A DNA stretch of 37,502 nt, taken from positions 1 through 37,502 of IMG/VR virus record IMGVR_UViG_3300042504_000547; one strand, written 5' to 3'. This DNA is from a virus. A program made the position numbers and the translations under genes. Under the pieces are notes generated by a model. It ran no database searches and was not told where the DNA came from. It saw only the letters and a list, made by a program, of their open reading frames with translations. Numbering within the stretch: the first letter of the stretch is position 1; every line of letters begins with the position of its first letter. Below, piece by piece: positions 29,711 through 37,502 of the stretch.

Positions 29711-30532
29711 TTACTTTGGGAGTGCGTCACTCGCTGCCTTGAGCAAACCTGCCGTGATCCGGTCTGCAATCTCTACGTGCACACCCTTCAAAAGGCTCTG
29801 AGTGGCTTCATTGGCAGAGATAAGATCACTAATCTTTTGCACCTTCTCCTCACCAGATAGTTTTTTGGAGTCCAAAATCTTAATGCCCATCTTCTCAAAG
29901 GCGGCTAGATAATCATCTTCGTTTTGATGGTGGGAGTACGGATCATCTGAGCCGGGTAGCAATAAGGCCCAATCACCCTGCGGCTCTTCAATCACCGTAG
30001 GAATCGGCTCTGCCTGCGGGATTACAATACTTTCCTTATGGGCATTAGGGATTGTTTCGACTTCGGTTTCATCGAGCATCCCAAGTCCGCAATGAGCCAA
30101 CACTGATCGGCGTATCGCTTTGGTAGTGCATTTAAGCACTGCGTTAGCAAGTGCATCTCCCTTGAGGTTTCCAATGCTAACAGCCCCTTGATTTTCGCTA
30201 GAGCGTCCATCAGCCCCGGTAACTCTGACTGAGACAACGTAAATATCATCGACCCGTTCTTTATTTGTAATCTGAGTTGACAGTTTGTGGAGGTTACAGA
30301 GTTGTTGTGTGGCTCCTGAATTGGCATATAGCACCTGCTTTCCGCTAAGGTTCAGCAGGTCAAACGGTTTGGCGCTTGGATCAAGGCCAATCTGTTTACA
30401 ACGGTAGTTGTAGTATTGAACCTTCTGAACTTGGTTTAGCCCCGACAAGTCCCCTTTTGTTACGATTGATTCAATGATCGCTGGATCGATAACAGCGACC
30501 TCACCCTTTGGCATACTGATTACATTACTCAT
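29711..30532 (-). CDS. RecT/SSAP-like single-strand annealing protein
   Basis: This encodes 273 residues. The pattern NQVQKVQYYNYRCKQIGLDP, then SAKPFDLLNLSGKQVLYANS and KAIRRSVLAHCGLGMLDETE is typical of a phage annealing-protein group related to RecT/Sak proteins (from memory). The last 110 residues are acidic and variable. The adjacent upstream gene is a YqaJ-type exonuclease, the classic two-component recombination pair. The site AGGGGCTAAAT precedes the ATG. Expected role: anneal single strands during phage recombination or concatemer formation. Confidence 0.72.
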   Translation of the reverse strand: MSNVISMPKGEVAVIDPAIIESIVTKGDLSGLNQVQKVQYYNYRCKQIGLDPSAKPFDLLNLSGKQVLYANSGATQQLCNLHKLSTQITNKERVDDIYVVSVRVTGADGRSSENQGAVSIGNLKGDALANAVLKCTTKAIRRSVLAHCGLGMLDETEVETIPNAHKESIVIPQAEPIPTVIEEPQGDWALLLPGSDDPYSHHQNEDDYLAAFEKMGIKILDSKKLSGEEKVQKISDLISANEATQSLLKGVHVEIADRITAGLLKAASDALPK

Positions 30533-30542
30533 ATTTAGCCCC

Positions 30543-31445
30543 TTACTTGATTAGAAAACGCCGACTACCCGGCTGCTCGACTACAAACTTCTCATAAGTC
30601 TCTGGTAATGCCTGCTTCAAAAGGTCAGCAGAGAATCGCTTGCTTGGCTTGCTAGACTTCCAAGTGGCAAGGATTGATCCATCGAAAGCCTTAAGTGTGG
30701 CCTTCGATTGCATAGCCGCTTGGATCATCTGCTTCAACCCTTCTTCGGCTTCCTCGTACTCTTTCATCTTGGCCTTGATCTGACCTAGTTGTTGGCAGGC
30801 TAACTCAAGCGCAGCGTTAGCCACCATGTCTGAGCCATCGTCAACCTTATATAGGTCTTTGGTTGCGTCAGCCATAGTCACTGGGTTCCAGTTCTTTGTC
30901 TGCACCTGCGCCCAAAACTCAGCCATAGCCCTGATGTGAGCCTCGGCTTCCAACTGTGTAAAGTTTTGCGGGAAATGGCATAACTCCTGACCACCAAACA
31001 GAACTACTAACACGATGTTCTGCACCCCCTCATGGACTATCTGCTCATGCAGGCATTGAGCGCGATACTTCTCAGAGATCATCTCCGTACCGTCATCTCC
31101 GTATTTTTTGCGCTGGTGTACGCCAAGGTTCTTGACCTCGTAGAGAGTCTTGCCATCGGTAGAGATGTAGTCGAAGTGTGAGGCCATCCAGTTATGCTTT
31201 GAATTGTGCAGCGTGTAGTCTGCGTCTTTGAACTCCCAACCCCACCTGCCGGCAGCGATCCGCATAATAGGTTCTTGCATCAGCAAGCCCATCTGTACGG
31301 GTTCTACGTCTGAGAGATCAGGAGCGTCTTTTTGCCCCGTCTTTTGCAGGTAGACTTCACCGCCCTTACCTTCAGCGATCATCCCCGCATCAGATGACCA
31401 GATTGCCTTGTCACGAATGGCAAGGTCTTTTTCGCTTAATGCCAT
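30543..31445 (-). CDS. YqaJ/lambda-Exo-type recombination exonuclease
   Basis: This encodes 300 residues from the ATG at 31445; the TTG four codons upstream is not needed because GGGGG (31451-31455) is well placed for the ATG. Core motifs of the PD-(D/E)xK exonuclease fold are E58 (LMQEPIMR), D92 (ASHFDYI), E103-x-K105 (LYEVKNLG), and a downstream Gln helix (YRAQCLHEQ). The C-terminal third is a helical coiled region. It would resect dsDNA ends 5'-3' to load the annealing protein encoded next. Confidence 0.82.
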   Translation of the reverse strand: MALSEKDLAIRDKAIWSSDAGMIAEGKGGEVYLQKTGQKDAPDLSDVEPVQMGLLMQEPIMRIAAGRWGWEFKDADYTLHNSKHNWMASHFDYISTDGKTLYEVKNLGVHQRKKYGDDGTEMISEKYRAQCLHEQIVHEGVQNIVLVVLFGGQELCHFPQNFTQLEAEAHIRAMAEFWAQVQTKNWNPVTMADATKDLYKVDDGSDMVANAALELACQQLGQIKAKMKEYEEAEEGLKQMIQAAMQSKATLKAFDGSILATWKSSKPSKRFSADLLKQALPETYEKFVVEQPGSRRFLIK

Positions 31446-31472
31446 ATCAGCCCCCAAATTAAGTTAGCGAAG

Positions 31473-34007: not shown

Positions 34008-34059
34008 GTGTAAACGTCTACACGATATGAACCGTATACCTATTTTGTACCCGTGTCAA
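34008..34059 (-). promoter_or_regulatory. Candidate leftward promoter with palindromic operator
   Basis: On the minus strand a perfect TTGACA (34059-34054) is followed by a 15-base spacer and TATACG (34038-34033), then just downstream a 16-base near-palindrome, GTGTAAACGTCTACAC (34008-34023), with seven of eight pairs. This would place an operator over the transcription start of the unit starting at 33984. The spacing is short, so the promoter call is moderate. The symmetry is seen directly. Confidence 0.42.
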
Positions 34060-34092: not shown

Positions 34093-34329
34093 TGTGGACA
34101 AGTCTGTGAATAAGTTGTGGATAAGTGCTGTGTTACAATGCTCCCTACTATATGTCTTATATGCCTACATCTAGAGGGTTTACATCTACGTAGTACTTAT
34201 CAATTTTAGAATGTAAACATAGCCTAGATAAAAAATCATCTAGTTAACTAAAATTCTAGGTTTATAGGTGGGTAGTATCTAGGTTTAGGTTTAATCTAGA
34301 TTTAGGACATATAGGGCGATTGTGGATAA
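34093..34329. other. Candidate replication origin with DnaA-box-like 9-mers
   Basis: Three DnaA-box-like 9-mers lie at 34093-34101 (TGTGGACAA), 34105-34113 (TGTGAATAA) and 34116-34124 (TGTGGATAA, a perfect complement of TTATCCACA). Their spacing of 12 and 11 bases puts them on one face of the helix. A fourth perfect box lies at 34321-34329. Between the triplet and the fourth box is an AT-rich stretch with CTAG clusters and decamer repeats, a candidate unwinding element. Such an origin would be opened by host DnaA. The boxes are seen directly; function is inferred. Confidence 0.62.
34255..34304 (+). repeat. TCTAGRTTTA decamer repeats in the origin region
   Basis: Copies are TCTAGGTTTA at 34255-34264 and 34278-34287, and TCTAGATTTA at 34295-34304. 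A looser version (TCTAGAGGGTTTA) is at 34170-34182. CTAG occurs six times between about 34170 and 34300, far above chance. The repeats sit in the AT-rich part of the candidate origin and resemble iterons. No encoded iteron-binding initiator is recognisable. Confidence 0.55.
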
Positions 34330-34462
34330 CCTTGGGACTCGCACCGCCGCTGTCCAACGGATCAGCAGGCGGAGTGCGTATTCGATTTCCGAATTTTTGC
34401 TACCGATCAGAATTTGACACGGGCAACACACGTTCCCAAATTTTGCCTGCCGATTTATAGGT

Positions 34463-34579
34463 ATGTTGACCGATGGATTGGAAACGGTAGTGGGTAGGCT
34501 ACTGGGTGCAGCAGGGGAAAAGTACGGGAATGGATTAGAGGCGATTAGAGGGCGTAAAAAAACCCGCCGTAGGGGTTAG
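34463..34579 (+). CDS. Doubtful 38-residue basic ORF in the origin segment
   Basis: An ATG frame encodes 38 residues, MLTDGLETVVGRLLGAAGEK followed by YGNGLEAIRGRKKTRRRG. It is helical with a basic tail and lies on the plus strand, opposite to all neighbours. No good ribosome-binding site precedes it, and its end runs into a minus-strand terminator. It may be chance; I list it because nothing else explains this part of a 640-base gap (33985-34624). Confidence 0.2.
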   Translation: MLTDGLETVVGRLLGAAGEKYGNGLEAIRGRKKTRRRG

Positions 34580-34590: not shown

Positions 34591-34615
34591 AAAAGAAAAG
34601 CCCCCGAAGGGGCTT
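34591..34615 (-). terminator. Minus-strand terminator 1 (proximal)
   Basis: A 7-bp stem, AAGCCCC (34598-34604) with GGGGCTT (34609-34615), has a four-base loop. Read leftward it is followed by T-rich sequence (34599-34591 reads AAAAGAAAA on the plus strand). It lies just after the last gene of the leftward early unit (34625). The position and structure are typical of a strong intrinsic terminator. Confidence 0.78.
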
Positions 34616-35360: not shown

Positions 35361-36008
35361 TTAGGCCGTTACGGGCTGATCTTCTGCTACGGGGGCGTTT
35401 TCTAGGGTTTTCGGCTTATAGTTCCAGTTTGGAACCGTTGCGCGGTTCATATCGCGCAAAGGCATAATGACCCCGAAAAAATTGTCAATCCCATTATTGA
35501 CAATCGCCGCGCTATTACCACGATGTAAGACGCTAACGGTTGAAATAGCACCTTTTTTGTTACCTCTGATGTCGTTAGCCGCATCTTGAAAAGCCATCAG
35601 ATAAGCCGGATTAAACCCTGCAGGGGATTCATCTTCGGCTTTTAATGCGGGGGGCACAATCCGATCAATGTCGGGGAAATTACCCTCAACTGCTGTGAAG
35701 GTGTATTTATCAGAACCCGTGATAACTTCGATTGATAAACCCTCAACGGTGAAATGTAACCACTCATCGCCCTTTTTACCCGCCGCAGTTAGCGTTTTGA
35801 TTGCGTCATTACCAAGAATGATGCTAGCGCACGGCATAGGTTGATCAAGAATCAAGAATCTAGCCGCCATGTGTCCATTGGTAGCCTCTAGATAGGTTCC
35901 CCGATTGTTTTGCACAATGTGAACCCCGTTCAGATAATGGCGGATGTCTTTTACTGTAGCAAAACGGGAAACGGCTTTAAGTTCTTTTCTTAGCATTGAA
36001 AATTTCAT
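35361..36008 (-). CDS. Truncated DNA sliding-clamp (DnaN-like) protein
   Basis: This encodes 215 residues against about 366 for bacterial DnaN. The match is to the second half of a clamp. DIRHYLNGVHI (21-31) and LEATNGH (40-46) resemble the start of E. coli domain II (DVRYYLNGM, ATDGH). VEGNFPDIDRIVP (107-119) resembles DGRFPDYRRVLP at its end. GFNPAYL (131-137) and GVIMPLRD (179-186) correspond to the late domain III segments, including the terminal MPMRL. Domain I and the first half of domain III are missing. The retained region is where clamp partners dock. No phage polymerase is seen, so it may recruit or sequester host replication proteins. The site AAGGGG and the CCTAATCA leader lie upstream. 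Confidence 0.8.
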   Translation of the reverse strand: MKFSMLRKELKAVSRFATVKDIRHYLNGVHIVQNNRGTYLEATNGHMAARFLILDQPMPCASIILGNDAIKTLTAAGKKGDEWLHFTVEGLSIEVITGSDKYTFTAVEGNFPDIDRIVPPALKAEDESPAGFNPAYLMAFQDAANDIRGNKKGAISTVSVLHRGNSAAIVNNGIDNFFGVIMPLRDMNRATVPNWNYKPKTLENAPVAEDQPVTA

Positions 36009-36793: not shown

Positions 36794-37024
36794 TTAAGAT
36801 AGATTGAGAGAAAAAGGCGATTCATCGAACCGGCAGAGATAACCCTCTGCTTTAAGTGCTTCGATTACTTCGCGGGGAATGATCGAAACGCCTGAACAAT
36901 CGACTAGCCTGCGTAATTCAAAACGCAGACGGGCGGCTTTTTCATCGCCTAGGCGGTCATGCTCGAAGTACACGGAATCCCCGTTTAATTCGATTGTGTA
37001 GTTTTGAGTGCTGATTGTTTTCAT
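36794..37024 (-). CDS. Small hypothetical protein, first gene of the leftward early unit
   Basis: This encodes 76 residues. It opens with beta strands (MKTISTQNYTIELNGDSVYF), then a charged helix, then SIIPREVIEALKAEGYLCRF. Two Cys are present and no family is recognised. GAGGGG lies six bases before the ATG, with CCTAAT further upstream. It is the gene closest to the AT-rich control region and may be the earliest expressed. Confidence 0.6.
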   Translation of the reverse strand: MKTISTQNYTIELNGDSVYFEHDRLGDEKAARLRFELRRLVDCSGVSIIPREVIEALKAEGYLCRFDESPFSLNLS

Positions 37025-37203
37025 AGTGAACCCCTCATATATGTATTAGGAATTTATAAGATAGCACGTTATCGCGTTTAGTGCCCCATATATACATACA
37101 TTTTTTTTTATAGGTTTTTACTATACGATAGTCTAGTCCTATATATAGGTAGTTCTTTATGTATATATAGAGATATGCACTACGGGCTATATGTGCTGGG
37201 GTT
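37025..37203. promoter_or_regulatory. AT-rich control region for divergent transcription
   Basis: This 179-base gap, joined through the overlap to 1-316, separates the leftward and rightward units. It contains a perfect 12-bp palindrome, CCTATATATAGG (37138-37149), the inverted repeat ACTAT-ACG-ATAGT (37120-37132), a run of nine T, and many TATATA tracts. No clear -35/-10 pair for the leftward unit was found. It holds no credible gene. Confidence 0.5.
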
Positions 37204-37502
37204 GCCTCTCCCCCTGCGTTTCATAATGGGGTAAAAGGGGACAGCGACCTTTCCCGCATTTACGCATTCACGCAACGCACAATGTCAAACCTCTACGCAT
37301 CAATGATTCTTTTCTGACAGGTAAAGTTGCCCGATCAAATGGGTTTGCACTCTCTGGATGCGCGACCCATAACCCTCCCCGCCCCAAGGAAAAATCAGGT
37401 TTTCCTATAATGGCTACGGGTGCGGTAACAATCTGTCTGGCAACGCTGAGATCGGTTGTTGTACACAACCGCACCCACCATTTATGCTAATATCTGTCCA
37501 TA
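37204..37502. repeat. Right copy of the terminal overlap
   Basis: This is the partner of 1-299, with the last 127 bases identical and eight substitutions in the first 172. It reads directly on from the AT-rich control region, so this copy is more likely the true genomic one, while 1-172 is a variant branch (inference). In a 68-residue minus-strand frame present in both copies, all four codons that differ change the amino acid, so that frame is not treated as a gene. Confidence 0.85.

Follow-up and report, generated by a model that had tools for sequence, protein, structure and literature searches.

Does the intergenic DNA at positions 34093-34329 of an uncultured phage genome hold a replication origin of the kind used by bacterial chromosomes, and could the phage be copied from it by the DnaA protein of its host? 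The window, which is the whole stretch of DNA analysed here, comes from IMG/VR and comprises the 37,502 bases recorded for an uncultured virus infecting bacteria. Its two ends (1-299 and 37204-37502) repeat each other over 299 bases with 291 identities (97%), and the sequence of relatives runs continuously across the junction of these ends, so the genome is circularly permuted, with a length of about 37.2 kb. The record is a slightly over-complete circular or permuted genome. No close relatives at the DNA level were found among GenBank phages, and the close relatives found by protein were only two uncultured genomes. In search of the host, the capsid protein was compared with 399 genomes from the bacterial order to which Alysiella belongs; the one match was weak and uninformative. 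We conclude that the segment 34093-34329 is probably an oriC-type replication origin of this phage, and its features suggest that the phage is copied by recruiting the host's DnaA.

The box cluster and its TA-rich segment

Four DnaA-like 9-mers lie at this locus, all on the minus strand. A single box, R1 (34321-34329, TTATCCACA), has its 3' end toward a TA-rich segment, and on the other side of that segment stands a tandem array composed of box 1 (34116-34124, TTATCCACA), box 2 (34105-34113, TTATTCACA), and box 3 (34093-34101, TTGTCCACA). The start-to-start distances are 205, 11, and 12 bp. Both the boxes and their spacing agree with a preliminary description of this DNA, as does the non-coding character of the segment, which is part of an intergenic stretch from 33997 to about 34703. 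Perfect copies of TTATCCACA occur only twice in the window, as R1 and as box 1 of the array, and loose single DnaA boxes are as common as expected by chance (73 matches versus 82 expected). Chance clustering was assessed by first-order Markov simulation of 300 genomes. Four boxes within 229 bp were seen in none of them (0/300), the largest cluster being three boxes (in 3/300), and two perfect boxes as close together as those in the window were likewise never obtained (0/300). The DnaA-box cluster at 34093-34329 is far beyond chance.

The 196 bp between R1 and the array (34125-34320) form the proposed unwinding element. This segment is 66.8% A+T and contains 33 TA steps versus 21.8 expected from base content, a ratio of 1.5 compared with 0.85 genome-wide, and by nearest-neighbour energy it ranks among the two least stable in the genome. 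The preliminary description had drawn attention to TCTAGRTTTA repeats in this AT-rich stretch. Stretch and repeats both exist, the three copies in the window (at 34255, 34278, and 34295) all lying inside the TA-rich segment, but the motif was rejected as a conserved origin repeat and finds no support as a functional element, since nearly all relatives lack it and only the closest kin carry it. The DnaA-trio is known from some oriCs and was not taken as obligatory; beside the boxes of the window, the longest TA[AG] run was two, not above shuffled sequences. Given that DUE motifs vary between species (PMC10316083), a missing DnaA-trio does not disqualify the locus as oriC type. Directly 5' of R1 is a strong hairpin (34330-34379), common to L003 and L007; at the same place, L002 has unrelated sequence that also folds strongly.

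The features of an oriC-type origin that are seen here are thus a box cluster beyond chance, a strand and spacing compatible with a DnaA filament, and an adjacent, easily melted AT-rich segment.

Conservation and absence of the array in relatives

Relatives were fetched by their exonuclease gene, a choice blind to the boxes, which yielded 54 loci. Conservation was counted over the 31 of these with at least 3 kb of upstream sequence, several of which are near-duplicates. A tandem array is present at 20 of the 31 loci, in the same place and on the exonuclease strand, one of these (L009) having a pair 23 bp apart. Three loci (3/31) have no array but carry, on the exonuclease strand, a pair of perfect boxes separated by 163-164 bp, and neither arrangement is seen in the other eight (8/31). 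Arrays hold two to six boxes, usually spaced by 11 and then 12 bp; most loci have two or three, and the maximum of six perfect tandem boxes is reached in L002 and L003. When the boxes of every array locus are pooled, loci retrieved by the array itself among them, 120 of 130 are perfect copies of TTATCCACA. Where a locus has two good boxes, a decayed copy such as TTATCCCCA often occupies the third position. Box columns reach about 2 bits versus 0.2-0.4 in the flanks, a difference inflated by the anchoring of the alignment on the boxes. Many relatives retain R1, at a distance of 140-256 bp from the array, but some array-bearing ones lack it. In near-complete relatives having the locus, perfect boxes are almost confined to it. 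The array reaches phages whose exonucleases are only 39-55% identical, a set that indicates range and not frequency because these phages were fetched by the array pattern.

Between R1 and the array, the core of the window is unrelated to that of L003 or L018, for example, and differs from that of L006, with the boxes retained. L002 is 96% identical to the window over 34093-34336; this match ends at the array and the flanks differ, suggesting that the box unit moves as a cassette. Among 22 exonuclease-bearing phage loci, 20 have their higher A+T peak 5' of the array. Conservation in relatives had been named beforehand as the check on which the origin reading could fall; the boxes are conserved in many relatives, and the reading was not refuted. 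The candidate origin of the preliminary description is in fact strengthened, as box strand, spacing, and position are kept while the core is replaced, whereas its TCTAGRTTTA element, its terminators on both sides, and its supposition of rarity were not supported.

GC skew, also put forward earlier as a check, is weakly informative, since the overall skew of the window tracks transcription direction. When only DNA with a single direction of transcription is considered, the exonuclease side of the locus has the higher skew, and the stretch between the two islands described below the lower, in 22 of 23 mutually related loci (means of 0.098 and 0.029). This step at the locus may reflect forks leaving it, with which it fits; gene content or transcription could also cause it.

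Bacterial genomes were searched for the exact N2/N3 triple, and dnaA was scored by a DnaA signature peptide in the fetched DNA. At least 115 bacterial stretches contain the triple, and 67 of 115 among the matches listed carry dnaA. Tandem TTATCCACA triples were found in at least 120 IMG/VR viral stretches (L058-L177), most of them not related to the window phage. For viral stretches from the related pattern, dnaA was present in 0 of 120 among the matches listed, and a reversed-pattern control gave one viral match versus at least 120. Taken together, the 67/115 versus 0/120 counts and the single control match indicate that the geometry is that of chromosomal oriCs and that the viral stretches are not mere pieces of chromosome around dnaA. 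At bacterial loci the A+T peak has the same lean, 5' of the array, as at phage loci, although less strongly (37 versus 17). A survey of phage origins by the TTATCCACA-triple pattern seems feasible.

Some relatives have no boxes at the locus. G010/L047 and the circular GenBank genomes MW202825 and MW202753 have no array and a single TA-rich island elsewhere; the annotations of the two GenBank genomes include no replication polymerase, helicase, or initiator. L023 and L024 keep the TA-rich segment, and the three tandem boxes of L019 are absent between otherwise similar flanks, which makes this pair a naturally box-less variant. In the exonuclease tree, array-bearing and array-less loci are interleaved, with L023, L024, L027, and L047 forming one group that adjoins the array-bearing L019. 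This placement fits at least one loss of the array, in a tree that cannot separate gain from loss.

In most genomes of the group, a second TA-rich island, without boxes, lies 1.5-4 kb from the one at the locus. In the window, the second island (37001-37240), which is devoid of DnaA boxes, lies at the head of the other leftward operon; it is the least stable stretch of the genome and melts as easily as the 34125-34320 segment. Islands of this second type are also found in relatives, some without a DnaA array. The second island could be an alternative origin or a promoter region. It is mainly because of this island and the box-less relatives that we call the origin probable and go no further.

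Gene setting, proposed mechanism, and alternatives

To the left of the segment is a leftward operon that starts at the locus and encodes 65-aa and 63-aa proteins, an epimerase, a 235-aa protein, a RecE/YqaJ-like exonuclease (30543-31457, minus strand), a Rad52-like annealing protein (29711-30532, minus strand; weak Pfam hit), an SSB-like protein, and a RusA-like protein. To the right, a second leftward operon ends in two leftward terminator-like hairpins (34561-34577 and 34598-34615, minus strand). Terminators had been described on both flanks; the right side does have these two hairpins, whereas the left side has no terminator and in its place a promoter-like element (34031-34059, minus strand), read from the sequence as TTGACA at 34059-34054 with a poor -10. 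We infer that it reads into the early (exonuclease) operon. Beside it is a near-palindrome, GTGTAAACGTCTACAC (34008-34023), with similar sequences in L005, L006, L009, L012, and L016, which is a possible repressor operator. No RNA gene or tRNA was found at the locus.

In scans against PHROGs and Pfam, none of the window proteins covered was recognized as an initiator, helicase, primase, polymerase, or integrase; as several small and some large proteins have no family, this result does not prove that replication genes are absent. An accessory protein of 215 aa (35361-36008, minus strand) is beta-sliding-clamp-like, being related to the middle domain of the bacterial clamp (Pfam, 4.7e-6; E. coli clamp, about 1e-6). 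Its C-terminal GVIMPLR resembles the C-terminus of the beta sliding clamp. Relatives of this protein at 30% are found in L077 and L090; it was not found in close relatives of the phage, and no relatives were fetched with it in viral contigs. An AlphaFold model of the protein was set aside (mean pLDDT 36).

In the mechanism that we propose, host DnaA-ATP would form a head-to-tail filament on the tandem boxes, with DnaA on R1 assisting. The TA-rich segment between R1 and the array would then melt, and host helicase, primase, and polymerase III would be loaded there. Filament formation, opening, and helicase loading are modelled on oriC biology (PMC4285127, PMC10316083). The exonuclease, annealing, SSB-like, and RusA-like proteins could convert early theta replication into recombination-driven concatemers for packaging.

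The alternative that survives best is that the boxes are mainly a transcription switch, with DnaA bound upstream of the early promoter activating or timing the recombination operon without starting replication. The array does lie upstream of this operon and on its strand, and a -35-like TTGACA is found downstream of the array not only in the window (gap of 33 bp) but also in several relatives, including L019 (12 bp). However, array and promoter are not a fixed distance apart, and the array persists across loci that differ in promoter type. R1 stands on the far side of the TA-rich segment, some 260 bp away from the promoter, and L024 has the promoter-like element but no array. On balance, we consider it unlikely that the boxes serve mainly in transcription.

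Could the array instead be a DnaA sink like datA, which would titrate or inactivate host DnaA and halt host initiation as phage copies rise? The six perfect tandem boxes of L002 and L003 would suit such a role, and many phage copies per cell would be expected to bind much DnaA. A sink, however, needs neither a fixed place upstream of one operon nor an adjoining TA-rich segment, and in most loci the boxes number only two or three; we regard this explanation as very unlikely. Still less weight is given to an initiator encoded by the phage that binds the TA-rich repeats in iteron style, as at P1 oriR, with the DnaA boxes merely assisting. Repeats such as TCTAGRTTTA in the window core would accommodate such a protein, and P1 and other iteron plasmids combine DnaA boxes with a Rep protein (PMC4980987). 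Yet the repeats are not kept among relatives, and neither Pfam nor PHROGs gave a Rep-like hit for any of the window proteins covered, including those of the early operon, in which several small proteins have no family. Finally, a chance cluster or functionless drift would agree with the absence of boxes from some relatives but has almost no probability in view of the simulations and the deep conservation, which extends to relatives picked blind to the boxes.

An oriC-type origin is therefore our preferred reading of the locus. For the phages as a group, we advance a broader proposal only tentatively: a large uncultured group would have no initiator of its own, host DnaA alone would fire an oriC-like unit whose melting core is exchanged as a cassette, and in some lineages a different start site, perhaps the second TA-rich island, would have taken the place of the boxes.

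Comparison with known origins

DnaA boxes in phages are not new, being present in P1, in the T5-like phage DT57C, and in one Pseudomonas phage, for which one origin with DnaA boxes has been predicted (PMC11512268). The apparent novelty lies in the conservation of an oriC-like unit across small phages of one group, in which no replication initiator was recognized. A literature search that covered papers open without subscription found no study of DnaA-driven origins in uncultured phages, and the term 'DnaA boxes' was not found in a literature search on T5-like phages. Should the reading hold, small phages of a widespread group would be dependent on host DnaA, and their replication would be linked to the cell cycle of the host and its supply of DnaA. 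These loci would also be natural minimal oriC designs, with constant boxes, a variable melting core, and box-less lines, useful for testing what an oriC needs. In addition, simple scans for DnaA-array patterns could point to origins in uncultured phage genomes.

In DT57C, two tandem TTATCCACA pairs with 3-bp gaps stand about 50 bp apart in a non-coding stretch. Compared by box layout, DT57C, a lytic phage, resembles the window phage in having tandem boxes in non-coding DNA; it differs in its 108-kb genome and in having two pairs instead of a triple array plus R1. T5 encodes its own replication proteins. DnaA-dependent initiation had been called unusual for a lytic phage at the outset; a rarity of DnaA-box clusters in lytic phages is not supported, given the paired boxes of DT57C and the at least 120 IMG/VR stretches with tandem triples. 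The lambda ori uses the host replisome, and recombination genes make concatemers, an arrangement like the one proposed for the window phage. In contrast, lambda encodes the initiator O and the loader P, and no O- or P-type protein was recognized in the window phage.

P1 oriR and the iteron plasmids RK2 and pSC101 resemble the locus in combining DnaA boxes and an AT-rich unwinding element. In P1 the boxes form two arrays, one of which lies upstream of the unwinding element, and the phage uses its DnaA boxes together with RepA (PMC4980987). Whereas P1 oriR, RK2, and pSC101 need a plasmid Rep and iterons, neither was recognized in the window phage. Compared with bacterial oriC, the phage locus has no adjacent dnaA and no DnaA-trio run, lies on a 37-kb phage, and has its melting segment flanked by the single box on one side and the array on the other. 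In common with bacterial oriC, it has DnaA 9-mers that share a strand, gaps of 2-3 bp within the tandem array, and an adjoining, easily melted AT-rich segment.
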